A stretch of DNA of 41,385 nt, taken from a virus. Shown here piece by piece: positions 1 through 41,385 of the stretch. Location of the stretch: positions 1-41,385 of IMG/VR virus record IMGVR_UViG_3300034407_001416. The stretch is one strand, 5' to 3'. The position numbers and the translations under genes were made by a program. Positions within the stretch are counted from its first letter, which is position 1, and each line of letters starts with the position of its first letter. The notes below the pieces were generated by a model. It made no database searches. It saw only the letters and a list, made by a program, of their open reading frames with translations, and was not told the DNA's origin.

Positions 1-489
1 GAAGAACCTACAATGGGTCGTCTTGACGGTAAACCATCGGTTGATCAGATGTTCGCTGCTGTACCTGGTGGCGATGGTTCAGCTCCTGCAGCACCAAGTG
101 CACCAATTCCACCAGCACCTAATGCAGCACCTGCTAAGTTAGAGATGACTGCTAAAGCTAACGGTGTGACACTTGAAGCGTATCTTGCGACACCAGGGTG
201 GACTGAAGAGATGTTGATTGAGCAAGGTTTGGCTACGCGCCCAGTTGCTCCTGCTGCTCCTGCTGCTCCTGCTGCTCCTGCTGCTCCTGCTGCTCCTGCT
301 GCTCCTGCTGCTCCTGCTGCTCCAACACCGCCAGTGCCACCTGTACCAAGTGCGCCAGCAGCACCGGTTGCATTGCAGATGACAGCAGCAGCTAATGGTG
401 TGACTTATGAAGCGTACATGGCTACACCAGGGTGGACTGACCAGATGCTACTTGATCAAGGTTTGGCTATCCGTCCGTCTTTCGCTTAA
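1..489 (+). CDS. C-terminal part of RHH-type DNA-binding protein (joins 41185-41385): Ala-Pro linker and two GWT modules
   Basis: The frame is open from base 1 (Glu-Glu-Pro-Thr before the first Met at 13) and continues in phase from the open frame that runs off the other end, so I read it as residues 68-229 of one 229-aa protein. An internal start at 13 is possible, but no ribosome binding site precedes it in the window. Two modules of about 35 residues, LEMTAKANGVTLEAY...GWTEEMLIEQGLATRP and LQMTAAANGVTYEAY...GWTDQMLLDQGLAIRP, are separated by an Ala-Ala-Pro linker encoded by eight identical 9-base units. The modules look like small helical units on a flexible tether, perhaps for protein-protein contact or oligomerisation; no function is established. 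A terminator follows directly. Confidence 0.75.
   Translation, partial: EEPTMGRLDGKPSVDQMFAAVPGGDGSAPAAPSAPIPPAPNAAPAKLEMTAKANGVTLEAYLATPGWTEEMLIEQGLATRPVAPAAPAAPAAPAAPAAPAAPAAPAAPTPPVPPVPSAPAAPVALQMTAAANGVTYEAYMATPGWTDQMLLDQGLAIRPSFA
247..318 (+). repeat. In-frame minisatellite, (GCTCCTGCT)x8
   Basis: Eight perfect tandem copies of the 9-mer GCTCCTGCT encode an Ala-Pro-Ala linker between the two GWT modules. A 9-base unit keeps the frame when copies are gained or lost, so linker length can vary without destroying the protein. The perfect identity at DNA level suggests recent slippage. Confidence 0.9.
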
Positions 490-3963: not shown

Positions 3964-3981
3964 ACCATTACTTGACTGACG

Positions 3982-3997
3982 TGGAACAATGTGTAAC
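3982..3997 (+). promoter_or_regulatory. Tandem operator-like half-sites
   Basis: GTGGAAC (3982-3988 by motif, in GTGGAACAAT) and GTGTAAC (3991-3997) are direct repeats one DNA turn apart, downstream of a TTGACT at 3972-3977. They match the half-sites of the 17-bp operators at the early promoters, but both point the same way and no good -10 follows at 16-18 bases. It may be a decayed or variant site in the gap after the polymerase gene. Confidence 0.35.
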
Positions 3998-32214: not shown

Positions 32215-32336
32215 ATTGCGTTCCTCACCGTTAATTTAAACCATGACGCATTTTACATAGACTGATGAAATTTAGCAAGGGTCTATATTGTGTATGTCTT
32301 CGTTTTCTATCCTATCAATTTCTAAAAATCTGTCAT

Positions 32337-32494
32337 TCGTCATAGGAGTATATACTATTTCTATTCAGCCTTTAAAATCAGTAACTTATCGAAAATAAAT
32401 CCATGACACATTTTTTTGGATTCGTCATGGAATGCGTCAATGCGTCATAGGAGTATATATAGAGCAATTAAACCCTGTAGAATCAGTAACTTAC
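32337..32494 (-). repeat. Two 53-bp direct repeats spaced 105 bp
   Basis: Copy 1 (32337-32389) and copy 2 (32442-32494) share CGTCATAGGAGTATATA at one end and AATCAGTAACTTA at the other, with diverged middles but identical length. Read on the leftward strand this is TAAGTTACTGATT, then about 25 bases, then TATATACTCCTATGACG. The separation of exactly 105 bp, ten helical turns, places both on the same DNA face. A third core, TATATACTCCTGTGAC, lies inverted at 32597-32612. Confidence 0.85.
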
Positions 32495-32505
32495 GTTAAT
32501 GTGAT

Positions 32506-32533
32506 AGTATAGACTGTTGACGGTTTTGTTCAA
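32506..32533 (-). promoter_or_regulatory. Sigma-70-like promoter for the late operon
   Basis: Read leftward: -35 TTGAAC (32533-32528), 16-base spacer, -10 TATACT (32511-32506). The spacer lacks the GTGKAAC/GTTMCAC operator found at the early promoters, so this one should be controlled differently. The transcript leader would carry both 53-bp repeats before reaching the HNH-like gene. Confidence 0.6.
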
Positions 32534-32596
32534 TAATCCACCAGACTAACGCTGTGAGAGTCATGTTCTCAGCATCATTTAACACGATTTCCTTAA

Positions 32597-32640
32597 TATA
32601 TACTCCTGTGACAGATTCCATGACGCATCCATTCGTCACC
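32597..32640 (+). repeat. Inverted copy of the control-region core with TGACGCA half-sites
   Basis: TATATACTCCTGTGAC (32597-32612) is on the strand opposite to the two longer repeats; it is followed by CCATGACGCATCC (32618-32630) and ATTCGTCACC (32631-32640), both variants of the half-site seen around the other copies. Confidence 0.7.
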
Positions 32641-33077: not shown

Positions 33078-33380
33078 GCTTCTTCTCCATCTAGTAACTG
33101 TGTACCTGCTTCACTGATCTTGTAGCCGTAGTCTGACCATTCGGTAGATCAATCCTTTCTCTAACAATGAAGCGAGTGAATGTGTGTTCAAGTTCTGCCC
33201 GTGAGTCTCGACACCCTTCAACGTTTCCAGTTCATTCTGAGTTATCATGTAACCACGGTCTACGTCTTGATACTCACCTTCATCATTAGTAACACATGCA
33301 AGCAGATGACCACTGGCCTTAGCCACTTCAGTATAAGTAGCACCGACTGTTAACCCTTCAACCCATTTAATACAGATCAT
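33074..33380 (-). pseudogene. Small winged-helix-like protein gene with an apparent frameshift
   Basis: The intact frame from 33380 gives 89 aa ending at 33111. At 33140 a one-base shift would instead join ASLLEKGLIYR to WSDYGYKISEAGTQLLDGEEA, ending at 33074, a classic winged-helix C-terminus (KGLI-x(2,3)-R-SDYGYKIS-x-AG). That shifted frame ends in an ATGA overlap with the next gene, whereas the 89-aa end RMVRLRLQDQ looks like random out-of-frame sequence. So the ancestral product was probably 101 aa. A sequencing error, a real mutation or a programmed shift are all possible. The N-terminus (ICIKWVEGLTVGATYTEVAKASGHLLAC) is beta-like. Coupled by ATGA to the methylase-like gene upstream. Confidence 0.6.
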
Positions 33381-34048
33381 AATCTCTCACTCCATTGTTG
33401 TGTGCATAGTGCAGGTGTTGGAAAGCTGCGACCCATCTTCATTGATAAAGTGTTACCCTGGGTCACGTGTGCTGCGACTCCTGCTGCACTTAGATTGATG
33501 TAACATAAGTCTGCTGTCATGTGACTCAGCTCGACACAGTGAGCATACAGGTCAACATTTAACTCAGTTGCACGATGATGTGCAGCAATGACCATCCCAC
33601 CGCCACCAGCAGCCGGCTCACTTAACGACACGTAGCCTTTATCATTCACCGAGTCAGCAGATAGTGTCAGTTCAGCATTTAATCTGCACAATGAGTACGG
33701 TGTAAAGAATTGGCCCAACTCTTTACGACCCATGCTAAGTTCCATCAGTGTTTCACCAAGGAAGTCACCAGGTTGCAGTTCATGCGCCATTGATACCATA
33801 GCCAACATCTGAGCAAGTTGTGACTGTTCATCACTGTTGTACTTCTTGATGGTCTTCAGGTAGATGTCTTCAGCATCTTGCGAGTAGAACGGTGTTAACT
33901 GGTTCACAATGGTGATGCGCCCCAGTTCAGCAAAGTCTCTGATCACGTCGTGCAAGCTGCGAACATGTGACAGGTCTTCACACCGTTTGATGAATGCTTT
34001 CTTGACCGCGTCGTATGACGACAGATCTTCTTGTTTCTTTTTAGCCAT
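33377..34048 (-). CDS. N6-DNA-methylase-like protein (type I HsdM-related), short
   Basis: A 223-aa protein with ELGQFFTPYSLCRLNAEL (the QFFTP segment before the SAM-binding fold of HsdM-type enzymes) and motif I-like LSEPAAGGGGMVIAA near residues 140-155. The following fold is recognisable (LYAHCVELSHMTADLCYINL), but the protein ends with GNTLSMKMGRSFPTPALCTQQWSERL and has no NPPF/NPPY catalytic motif IV. A short phage branch of this family of the same length exists to my knowledge, so this is probably not a recent truncation. It may have lost catalysis or use a changed motif. Transcribed from the operator-bearing promoter at 34086-34114. Confidence 0.75.
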   Translation of the reverse strand: MAKKKQEDLSSYDAVKKAFIKRCEDLSHVRSLHDVIRDFAELGRITIVNQLTPFYSQDAEDIYLKTIKKYNSDEQSQLAQMLAMVSMAHELQPGDFLGETLMELSMGRKELGQFFTPYSLCRLNAELTLSADSVNDKGYVSLSEPAAGGGGMVIAAHHRATELNVDLYAHCVELSHMTADLCYINLSAAGVAAHVTQGNTLSMKMGRSFPTPALCTQQWSERL

Positions 34049-34085: not shown

Positions 34086-34114
34086 AGTATAGTGTAACAA
34101 TGTTCCACAGTCAA
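34086..34114 (-). promoter_or_regulatory. Early promoter with embedded 17-bp operator (methylase-like operon)
   Basis: Read leftward: -35 TTGACT (34114-34109), spacer GTGGAACATTGTTACAC (34108-34092, exactly 17 bp), -10 TATACT (34091-34086). The spacer is a near-perfect inverted repeat, GTGGAAC and GTTACAC around ATT. A protein bound here would block RNA polymerase. It lies just after the dUTPase terminator, so it restarts transcription into the 34048-32699 gene block. Confidence 0.88.
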
Positions 34115-34901: not shown

Positions 34902-34930
34902 AGTATAGTGGAACTTTGTTACACGTTCAA
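34902..34930 (-). promoter_or_regulatory. Early promoter with embedded 17-bp operator (dUTPase operon)
   Basis: Read leftward: -35 TTGAAC (34930-34925), spacer GTGTAACAAAGTTCCAC (34924-34908, 17 bp), -10 TATACT (34907-34902). The spacer is the same inverted repeat as at 34092-34108, in the opposite orientation, which shows that the site is functionally symmetric. It starts directly after the RNR stop codon and drives the 83-aa gene and dUTPase. Confidence 0.88.
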
Positions 34931-38326: not shown

Positions 38327-40954
38327 CTATCTCACCACTGTTAATTGTTGTTCACCACGTGCTGCTGACATCTGACGTTCATACTCGTGATAGAGTTGAG
38401 TCGATGACATGTGCGCGTAGTTCTCTTCATTACGAATCACCCACAAACGTGCATCACTGGTACGCACTTGCTGGTAACTCCCAATCTCTTTTAATATCAT
38501 GCCGATCTTCTTGTCCGTGAAGAACTTAGGATCAGTCATCATATCTGCCGGTGTCATTGCACCAGCTCGTAAAGTTTCACCCATATCATTAGCTGTAAGC
38601 ACATCACATCTGAATGCACCGTGTTGTTTATTGATGAATGCTTCAACTGTTTGCTGCATCGGTGACTTAGATGATTCTTTAATCTCACGCAAGAACTCAG
38701 TCATAGGTGGTGCTTCATTAGGGTTGAAGGTAGACAGATCAACAACGTTCATCAGATGGTGCACAACTGCTTTCCATCCACCGTTCTTCATCCACGTCCA
38801 TCGGTCTTCCCAGTATGTAAGCCATTCCTTTTTCATGTTGTCGTTCTTATCACGAGGATTAAGATCAGACCATATTGCATAGAAGCGACGTGAAGGACCA
38901 TTCAAGCGTAAAGGCATCACTGAGTTTGTTGTCATCGTTGAATTGATGATGTTACGAACCTTGATAGCTTTAATACCTTTCTGGTTCACACGTAGCGTAT
39001 CAGGTGGCGCAGCAGCTAAAGGTTTCAGCTTGTTACTGACTGCCAATGCTTCACGACGGTCACCCAACTCAGCTTCATTGATGTGTAAATATTTAGTAGA
39101 TAATAGATAGTCATTGAATCCGCTTAACAGGTCTTCACCACTGACTGTTGTCGTGTTCTCACCCATTGCTTTGATAAGTGGGTACAGTAGGAAATCTTTA
39201 CCACAACCTTCACCGCTACCCATCAGTAACATGTGGTTGATCTTGCGGTCAGGGTGACGCAGTGTAAAGGCCATCCATTTTTCAATGTGGTCACGGTGTT
39301 CAGTCCATTCAAGCGCGTCGAAGTGCATCAACCAACGACTAGCATCACCAGCTTCACCGGTAGATTGAGTTGAGTCACACCAAGTGTTTGCATAACGACA
39401 CCCGTTCTCAAGGAAGATACGTGGTTGTTTCGGTGCGTAGTCAAGGCGGTCAACCTTTTGAACACGACCATCTTGCAGTGCGATCTTACGTGCTTCAGCA
39501 TCTTCGTGACTGAAGGAGTTTTGGAATGCTTCAGTGCTGAAGAATATGCGTGACTCCCAGTCATAGAATTGGTTTAACTCTTTAACGAACACAACGTCAT
39601 CATAAAATTCTGCTTTGATTACCTTCTCACCGTACCAAGTCTTACGAAGGTCAGTGATGATGTCTTTAAAGTCTGCTTTGCTCCACCGCATGATGTCGAT
39701 CACAATCTCGTGCCAATGTTTCTGATCAATCTTAGGCATATCATCGGTGAACTTCAGGACCTTTGAAGCAACTTCACGCTGTTCATTAGTACCAGGTAAA
39801 TGACGACGAAGGTTATCACACATCAGTTGCAGTGCATCAGGGTCAACTTGTTCAACTTGTTCAACGACAACCGGTGCAGCGATAGGTTGCGCCATGAAGC
39901 TGACTTCAGGTGCAGATAGCTCATTGATTGCTTGTGCTGTGACTGGGTTAGGCTGGTGGACTACCGGTGTCATGAAGTTGATAGGTTCTGCAAAGGTTTC
40001 AAGTTCACGCATCACTTGCCAATTTTTTAACTTAGATGTGAAACCTGCTGATTCATTTTCTATGTATCGTAAAAGGTCTGCACCGGTTCTTCCTTGGCAA
40101 TTTCCGTGGTGACACTTAAAACCAATAGTACCGTCGCTATTAGTAAAGACTGCACTTCCTGAATCATCCTGTCCCGTGTGGTCGGCAACCCACGGGCATG
40201 TAATATCGAATCGTCCATCACTTCTTATCTCCTTAATATTTACAATATTTGGGATGTTGATCAAAGGATGGTCAGAAACTTCAGCAGCACCATCAACACG
40301 TGACTCACGTCGCTCTTTGTTCAGATCAACAGCAAAAGGTTCAGCTAGTTGTTCAAGTGTCACACGGTTGAATGGTTGCCACAGTAACATGCGACACTTA
40401 AACGGTTGACCATTCACCAGCTTACTTGCTTTATTGTTCACACCTTCAGGTAAGCGTAGGTAACGTGTTACCCCTTTCATGCCTGGATCACGACCATCTG
40501 GTGCTAGACCATTAGCCACCAGCCCATCGAGTAAGTTCTCAACACGACCACGATCAGCACATGGTGTATCAAGAATGTAACCCCATTGCTCAGAACCTAT
40601 TGATGATTCTAATATCCATGCAGGTTTAGGTAATTTGTTCACCTCAGTCATTGACAGCTTTTCTTTCACGTCATCCAACACAATCACCGGTGTGTGACGA
40701 AACAGTGCTTTACGACGACGGGCTTGACCCTGTTCATCACAATAGAAGTTACTGATGGTAAAATATTGGTTGGTGTTAGGTGACATTTTGTAACGTGAAA
40801 AGTAGTCACCCTTCCATGCGATAAGATGTTGATCTTTCGGTATGTTACCAGGGTCATGAGGGAAATCCGTTACATGACACCAAGGTGCATCAACACCGAA
40901 AAGTGTTTCAATGAATTCGTTATTACTTATTTTTAGGGGTAGTTGTTCCGTCAT
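38327..40954 (-). CDS. Primase-helicase: zinc-binding motif plus SF3-like helicase (DUF5906 type)
   Basis: An 875-aa replication protein starting at MTEQLPLKISNNEF, where AAGG is suitably placed upstream; the longer frame from 41023 has no ribosome binding site. Residues about 40-210 have primase-like features (ILDTPCADRGRVENLLDGLV, RYLRLPEGVNNK). A zinc-knuckle-like CPWVADHT...FKCHHGNCQGRTG lies near 245-290. The helicase domain has Walker A LMGSGEGCGKD near 580, then a HINEAEL Walker B-like segment and a SVMPLRLNGPSRRF sensor region. It probably unwinds DNA and primes for the family A polymerase. First gene of the leftward arm, divergent from the RHH-type gene. Confidence 0.85.
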   Translation of the reverse strand: MTEQLPLKISNNEFIETLFGVDAPWCHVTDFPHDPGNIPKDQHLIAWKGDYFSRYKMSPNTNQYFTISNFYCDEQGQARRRKALFRHTPVIVLDDVKEKLSMTEVNKLPKPAWILESSIGSEQWGYILDTPCADRGRVENLLDGLVANGLAPDGRDPGMKGVTRYLRLPEGVNNKASKLVNGQPFKCRMLLWQPFNRVTLEQLAEPFAVDLNKERRESRVDGAAEVSDHPLINIPNIVNIKEIRSDGRFDITCPWVADHTGQDDSGSAVFTNSDGTIGFKCHHGNCQGRTGADLLRYIENESAGFTSKLKNWQVMRELETFAEPINFMTPVVHQPNPVTAQAINELSAPEVSFMAQPIAAPVVVEQVEQVDPDALQLMCDNLRRHLPGTNEQREVASKVLKFTDDMPKIDQKHWHEIVIDIMRWSKADFKDIITDLRKTWYGEKVIKAEFYDDVVFVKELNQFYDWESRIFFSTEAFQNSFSHEDAEARKIALQDGRVQKVDRLDYAPKQPRIFLENGCRYANTWCDSTQSTGEAGDASRWLMHFDALEWTEHRDHIEKWMAFTLRHPDRKINHMLLMGSGEGCGKDFLLYPLIKAMGENTTTVSGEDLLSGFNDYLLSTKYLHINEAELGDRREALAVSNKLKPLAAAPPDTLRVNQKGIKAIKVRNIINSTMTTNSVMPLRLNGPSRRFYAIWSDLNPRDKNDNMKKEWLTYWEDRWTWMKNGGWKAVVHHLMNVVDLSTFNPNEAPPMTEFLREIKESSKSPMQQTVEAFINKQHGAFRCDVLTANDMGETLRAGAMTPADMMTDPKFFTDKKIGMILKEIGSYQQVRTSDARLWVIRNEENYAHMSSTQLYHEYERQMSAARGEQQLTVVR

Positions 40955-41082
40955 GTTAGCTGACCTTAAAATTGGTCTGACCAAAAAAGAATGCGGCAAC
41001 CTGGTCAGGTAGGCTGTTTCCATGATGTACGGTCACAGATAAGCCGCTTTAATATTTAAGCATTACTGCTTGTGGAAATCAA

Positions 41083-41109
41083 TTTATACTCAATGTGTAA
41101 CTTTGTCAA
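41083..41109 (-). promoter_or_regulatory. Possible leftward promoter of the primase-helicase operon
   Basis: Read leftward: TTGACA (41109-41104), 15-base spacer, TATAAA (41088-41083). The spacer is short, so strength is doubtful. The -35 lies inside the operator-like site at 41095-41111, so the same regulator could act here. The long leader to 40954 has no other gene. Confidence 0.4.
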
Positions 41110-41111
41110 AC
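41095..41111. promoter_or_regulatory. Operator-like 17-bp site, half conserved
   Basis: GTGTAACTTTGTCAAAC: the left half GTGTAAC matches the early operators exactly; the right half GTCAAAC matches loosely. It lies 31 bp (start to start) from the better site at 41126-41142, about three helical turns, which would allow cooperative binding across the divergent promoters. Confidence 0.6.
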
Positions 41112-41118
41112 ATTTTAG

Positions 41119-41148
41119 TTGACATGTGGTAAGTTGTTACACTATAGT
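41119..41148 (+). promoter_or_regulatory. Rightward early promoter with embedded operator, upstream of the RHH-type gene
   Basis: TTGACA (41119-41124, consensus -35), 18-base spacer, TATAGT (41143-41148). The spacer holds GTGGTAAGTTGTTACAC (41126-41142), a 17-bp site abutting the -10 as in the two leftward promoters; the right half GTTACAC is exact and the left half has two differences from GTGGAAC. It drives the RHH-type gene and, beyond a modest terminator, the replication genes. Confidence 0.88.
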
Positions 41149-41184
41149 TGTCCACGGTGACACAACGCAATGAGGAACATTCAA

Positions 41185-41385
41185 ATGTCTAATGACCAGT
41201 TTGAAGTTTTGGACGATGACTTGAGAATTAGAATTTCATCGTCTGAACTAGAAAACTTTAAGAAAAAATCGATTCGTGTAACAGGTAAACCTTACCAACT
41301 GTTAACACGTGAAATGATAACCGCTTTCAATCAAGGACGTTTACGCATCGTCCCGACTGAAGAACAAAAAACTGAACTTGGAGAA
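41185..41385 (+). CDS. N-terminal part of putative ribbon-helix-helix DNA-binding protein (continues at 1-489)
   Basis: GAGGAA lies seven bases before ATG 41185. Residues 11-17 (DDLRIRI) look like the DNA-contacting strand, SSELENFKKKSIRVTG like helix 1 and KPYQLLTREMITAFNQGRL like helix 2, the CopG/Arc-type fold; GKPYQ-x-L-T before the second helix is typical of CopG-like regulators. The frame reaches the end of the window with no stop and continues in phase at base 1, giving 229 aa with an Ala-Pro tail. Directly behind an operator-bearing promoter, it is the best candidate for the early-gene repressor. Fold assignment is by pattern only. Confidence 0.75.
   Translation, partial: MSNDQFEVLDDDLRIRISSSELENFKKKSIRVTGKPYQLLTREMITAFNQGRLRIVPTEEQKTELGE

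Follow-up and report, generated by a model that had tools for sequence, protein, structure and literature searches.

Virus-encoded proteins of the ribbon-helix-helix (RHH) superfamily regulate transcription in several described systems. In phage P22 the Arc operator lies inside the arc/ant promoter, which transcribes the repressor gene (P22 record), and autogenous regulation of arc has been documented (Youderian et al. 1982, as cited in PMC2629481). SvtR, AvtR and F55 are encoded by archaeal viruses; besides repressing its own promoter, SvtR binds further viral sites, and F55 binds several early promoters (PMC5569661). The RHH protein RelB leaves 9–10 bp between its protected regions, with dimers bound cooperatively on one face of the DNA (PMC2812701). 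Here we analyze a marine Vibrio-type podovirus (virus record IMGVR_UViG_3300034407_001416, positions 1–41,385, in the following called the window), in which at least five operator-like sites are spread over the genome and, judged from sequence, would control replication and nucleotide genes. We consider it probable that these sites are the operators of a phage-encoded, autoregulated RHH repressor, encoded at 41185, which shuts down the early promoters.

A preliminary description of this DNA had reported a near-palindrome of the form GTGKAAC-N3-GTTMCAC in the spacers of three promoters, at 34092, 34908, and 41126. All three sequences are present as described. The form itself is exact at 34092 and 34908, whereas the site at 41126 carries two mismatches and lies in an 18-bp spacer. 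Allowing up to three mismatches, this pattern is found 14 times in the window compared with a shuffle mean of 8, a modest excess which we dropped as proof of operators. Because the excess was weak, the consensus was rebuilt from related phages, whose half-sites show three free middle bases. The refined, sequence-derived consensus is GTNNNAC-WWW-GTNNNAC, that is, two self-complementary 7-bp half-sites with their centres 10 bp apart. It matches exactly four times in the window (3981, 34092, 34908, and 41095) compared with 0.25 matches expected under a first-order Markov model. All four copies are intergenic and belong to the 3.5% of 17-mers without any coding position, and no exact copy is found in the 26-kb structural region of the window. 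The ranking of the sites given previously is thus reversed: the two sites taken for weaker relatives, 41095–41111 and 3981–3997 (the latter had been placed at 3982), are perfect, and the half-degenerate fifth site is the one at 41126. In addition, the inverted orientation of one copy had been read as the sign of a dimer site; this means little, because each GTNNNAC half-site is self-complementary. The operators are as follows.

3981–3997, plus strand: operator, perfect match to the refined consensus, in the gap that follows the DNA polymerase gene
34092–34108, minus strand: operator GTGTAACAATGTTCCAC, exact match to the pattern first described
34908–34924, minus strand: operator GTGGAACTTTGTTACAC, exact match to the pattern first described
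41095–41111, minus strand: operator, perfect match to the refined consensus
41126–41142, plus strand: operator with an intact downstream and a degenerate upstream half-site, two mismatches to the pattern first described

Four of these operators are associated with the following promoters.

34086–34114, minus strand: accessory promoter TTGACT-GTGGAACATTGTTACAC-TATACT, with the -35 at 34109–34114 and the -10 at 34086–34091; the operator at 34092–34108 is the entire 17-bp spacer; heads the accessory/methyltransferase genes (33377–34048 and below)
34902–34930, minus strand: dUTPase promoter TTGAAC-GTGTAACAAAGTTCCAC-TATACT, with the -35 at 34925–34930 and the -10 at 34902–34907; the operator at 34908–34924 is the entire 17-bp spacer; heads an 83-aa gene and the dUTPase
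41119–41148, plus strand: the regulator's own promoter TTGACA-T-GTGGTAAGTTGTTACAC-TATAGT, with the -35 at 41119–41124 and the -10 at 41143–41148; the operator at 41126–41142 lies within the 18-bp spacer
41081–41109, minus strand: primase/replication promoter, divergent from the regulator promoter, with the -35 TTGACA at 41104–41109 and the -10 TAAATT at 41081–41086
38327–41023, minus strand: primase/helicase-like gene, with which the divergent operon behind the 41095 operator begins

Two types of placement can be distinguished. In the regulator, dUTPase, and accessory promoters the operator fills the spacer against the -10, as had been described for these three, but not every site touches a -10: at the primase promoter the 41095 operator covers the -35 and the spacer; the SSB promoter of related phages is likewise covered at its -35. 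The operator at 3981 begins 3 bp past a -35-like TTGACT (3972–3977), for which no convincing -10 was found. When the region from 33 to 41 kb was scanned mechanically for promoters, the top three, with 10–11 of 12 matches to sigma70, all carried an operator; the fourth operator promoter in this region (34930–34902) has 9 of 12 matches. A further half-site, GTGACAC, follows the regulator's operator after 31 bp, at 41157–41163, near the expected transcription start. We do not claim it as a third operator past the regulator's -10, as it is of half length and only 14 of 32 loci have it.

A separate set of repeats is located at 32241–32640, between the late and the accessory genes. It comprises GTCATAGGAGTATATA, found twice (32339 and 32444) and once in inverted form (32597), together with repeats resembling CCATGACGCAT at 32241, 32401, and 32618; the motif GGAGTATATA is absent from the four Vibrio phages PS25B.1, 1.021, 1.185, and MZH0603. 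This region could be a late promoter, an origin, or a packaging region.

For comparison we used these four phages (L005, L006, L007, and L008, respectively) together with IMG/VR contigs. Conservation in related phages had been named as one point on which the proposal should stand or fall, and the sites are in fact conserved: across 18 near-full-length records that bear the regulator gene, including the four cultured Vibrio phages, exact sites occur in all 18, 63 in total compared with 2 for the reversed pattern, and the loci around the regulator gene contain 41 sites where 0.6 are expected, counts which come from close relatives with shared ancestry and hence are not independent. The control was a set of 78 loci (985 kb) from other phages that encode a related ribonucleotide reductase, in which 2 sites were found and 1.0 expected. 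Given the shared ancestry, the column pattern weighs more than the site counts. In the downstream half of the regulator's operator, compared over 26 distinct divergent promoters, the G, the T, and the A are each kept in 25 of 26 and the C in 22 of 26, and the three middle positions hold 0.35–0.41 bits; GT and AC are thus near-invariant while the N bases turn over. The upstream half of this operator is often degenerate across the relatives.

The individual sites show the same behavior. The operator at 34092 is kept in L005, L006, L007, L010, L014, L015, and L027 despite a differing first downstream gene, and this promoter–operator unit heads four different first genes among the relatives. The one at 34908 is kept in L005, L006, L010, L023, and L027, with the half-site variants GTGTGAC, GTGTCAC, and GTGTAAC. 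An orthologue of the 3981 site retaining the GT/AC frame is found in all four Vibrio phages (with a differing sequence in L008) and, by position, in L014. The two divergent operators of the 41095/41126 type are spaced 29–31 bp apart in 32 loci. The full genomes contain a further operator towards the 3′ end of the gene for the DUF2800 protein (L005:1462–1478), which is not seen in the window because both contig ends fall there. In frame it reads GTT GCA CAA AGT NNN AC, and the string GTTGCAC-AAA-GTNNNAC persists in distant relatives while the surrounding codons and one residue inside vary. A promoter pattern TTG.AC-18-TA...T encloses this operator and points towards the SSB gene.

Two genes at the contig ends bear on which protein reads the sites.

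41185–41385, plus strand: predicted RHH repressor gene, 67 codons present and the rest cut by the contig end; 72 aa in the relatives
13–489, plus strand: Gp2.5-like SSB gene, C-terminal part, truncated at the left contig end; no part of the regulator

The likely reader is the protein encoded at 41185, for which binding to the sites is predicted. Its gene lies under the 41126 promoter, is present in all five genomes compared and wherever else the sites occur in a genome, and in the relatives adjoins both divergent operators. The regulator proposed previously was a joined product of 41185 and 1–489, of which only the 41185 half can be kept. The joined reading frame does not exist; it is a false join across the fragment ends, which fuses the N-terminal 67 regulator codons to the C-terminal part of the SSB, and in the relatives ∼2 kb including the DUF2800 gene separates the two. 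A motif of the type SVxQMFAxVP occurs in the C-terminal parts of both the SSB-like protein (13–489) and the DUF2800 protein (L005:223–1575) and may be a docking tail that the two have in common; the tail of the SSB also has an Ala-Pro-rich repeat.

The regulator likely belongs to the RHH (Arc/MetJ/CopG-type) superfamily, as the AlphaFold layout, the best match to RHH_1, the profile–profile score, the fold matches, and the symmetric half-sites point in this direction. For the window-type regulator, AlphaFold models an extended N-terminal segment up to residue 17 followed by helices at residues 19–33 and 37–50, with a pLDDT of 94–97 across residues 11–50, and the model of a divergent homologue in L024 has the same layout. 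Members of the superfamily have a topology of one beta strand and two helices over ∼40 residues; DSSP assigns no strand in the modelled monomer, as the strand could pair only in a dimer. The L024 homologue has Pfam RHH_1 as its best match in the expected register (E = 0.0035), at a score of 17.7 bits that is below the Pfam cut-off of 20.5; the window regulator itself has no RHH match in Pfam, and its sequence returned nothing above threshold from Pfam, PHROGs, NCBIfam, and the PDB. In the profile–profile comparison with RHH_1 members by hhalign, the regulator scored 18.2 (P = 0.003) over the full domain in register, with a probability of only 10%, and 40 column-shuffled controls scored 14.0 at most. 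A fold search of the PDB with the L024 model placed DinJ, Arc, TacA1, and CopG among the top seven, at individually non-significant E values of 2.9–7.3; the first model of the regulator gave no RHH match in the PDB, and the top matches in BFVD were small uncharacterised phage proteins. The operator has paired symmetric subsites ∼10 bp apart, such as RHH proteins read as dimers. Single-sequence comparison showed no homology to Arc or Mnt of P22 (hhalign probability 0.2 and 0.4%).

The distant homologue in L024 (7840–7950) has a different predicted strand (IQIQIRV), and its divergent promoter on the minus strand contains TTGTCTAGTATTGTCTTGACAA, in which TTGTC is repeated 10 bp apart. It is possible, from these sequences, that operator and protein changed together.

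From these features we infer binding, repression, and their timing. Each RHH dimer would insert its two-stranded ribbon into the major groove of one self-complementary GTNNNAC half-site. Polymerase would be blocked at the 34092, 34908, and 41126 promoters by the filled -35/-10 spacer and, at the primase promoter (41095) as well as at the DUF2800-internal promoter of the full genomes, by the covered -35. After infection the strong sigma70-type promoters would fire and the regulator would build up from its own promoter; once accumulated, it would turn off transcription of the replication, nucleotide-metabolism, and accessory genes, which from their functions are presumably early, together with its own gene, which amounts to a putative negative autoregulation.

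Other explanations have to be weighed against such a repressor. Some phages exploit the host LexA, and the sites could in the same manner be read by a Vibrio transcription factor, the adjacent small gene being incidental; the promoters are indeed of the sigma70 type that the host polymerase would read. Yet a search of 84,980 genomes of bacteria and archaea gave 12 occurrences of the strongest variant of the site, GTGGAACAWTGTTACAC, none of them in a Vibrionaceae record, and the sites go together with the regulator gene in 18 of 18 records and are at chance level in the 78 other phage loci, which makes a host factor a poor candidate. No better placed is a different phage protein, either the product of the next gene of the operon (L005:60–221, with longer versions), a gene that the four named relatives have kept as well, or an unrecognised one. 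Among the conserved small proteins only the 72-aa protein has a predicted DNA-binding fold, its gene adjoins two operators, and HTH_3 proteins are encoded in just 3 of the 18 records and are absent from the window. In MZH0603 there is an extra Cro/C1-type HTH protein (L008:3364–3585) with divergent small genes, an accessory cassette absent from the window; as reader of the sites this protein was rejected, since it is absent from the window and most relatives.

The regulator might also activate or time transcription, alone or in a dual role, instead of shutting it off, and some RHH proteins do act in both ways, such as AmrZ (PMC3325190). We regard this as unlikely, as the sites are between or on the -35 and -10 elements, where a bound protein blocks polymerase, and the promoters already match the sigma70 consensus at 9–11 of 12 positions. 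Finally, the repeats could merely reflect similarity of promoter consensus or shared ancestry, given that they border on -35 and -10 elements, whose conservation is to be expected in any case. This is very improbable and largely refuted already: the GT/AC pattern occupies the spacer, for which sigma70 promoters show no consensus of this kind, palindromes of equal layout used as controls are rare in this DNA, GT and AC stay while the N bases turn over, and one copy lies inside a coding gene (DUF2800). We retain the phage-encoded RHH repressor as the probable reader of the sites.

The preliminary description had left open whether these phages use an early shutoff or a lysogeny-like state. Its dispersed repressor-type regulon, with conserved operators placed at promoters, is supported. 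A lysogeny-like state is not supported: neither a tyrosine integrase, nor a conserved cI-like gene, nor a bacterial copy of the regulator was found. The tyrosine integrase family PF00589 is found in none of the 18 records (14 of 14 positive controls were recovered) in a search confined to integrases of this tyrosine type, and the window has no cI/Cro-type HTH_3 protein. One of the three HTH_3 occurrences in the 18 records is within an annotated HNH nuclease of 1.185. A profile search by short peptide patterns, which distant relatives could escape, gave no relative of the regulator in the same 84,980 genomes. PMC6029569 lists 1.021 and 1.185 among the podoviruses of a virus collection that is described as lytic. 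As neither an integrase nor a conserved cI-like gene was found, an early shutoff accords better with these results than lysogeny does. A further reading, less likely than not, is that the circuit, besides shutting early genes, makes the infected cell immune to a second, related phage or allows a slowed carrier state in the absence of an integrase or a cI-type repressor. Should related lytic phages become cross-immune through this circuit, it would affect how phages compete in the sea.

How early genes are turned off in small lytic phages that rely on the host RNA polymerase is often unknown. Here one small gene and a defined operator make the matter directly testable in the cultured phages PS25B.1, 1.021, 1.185, and MZH0603, and the operator code, with GT/AC fixed and the middle free, should help to find such regulons in many uncultured phages. 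The literature accessible to us, with subscription journals mostly outside reach, reports no RHH repressor regulon for lytic phages of this group.

Compared with the known systems, the present regulon shares with lambda-type cI/Cro control the near-palindromic operators in divergent early promoters, but lambda uses a helix–turn–helix repressor and an integrase, neither of which is conserved in these phages. The autorepressors CopG and RelB likewise bind pseudo-palindromic subsites about one helical turn apart; they act, however, in plasmid-copy or toxin–antitoxin control at a single self-promoter and not in a phage-wide regulon, and no toxin gene is seen beside the regulator gene. SvtR, AvtR, and F55 resemble the predicted regulator in being virus-encoded RHH proteins, yet they work on archaeal promoters with other operators, and the role of F55 is to maintain lysogeny, whereas no lysogeny machinery was found in the present phages. 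Arc of P22 is also a small phage-encoded protein of the RHH type with an operator inside the promoter of its own gene. Sequence homology to it is not detectable and P22 is temperate, with Arc and Mnt acting on ant in one small region (immunity I), whereas here at least five operators are dispersed over the genome.
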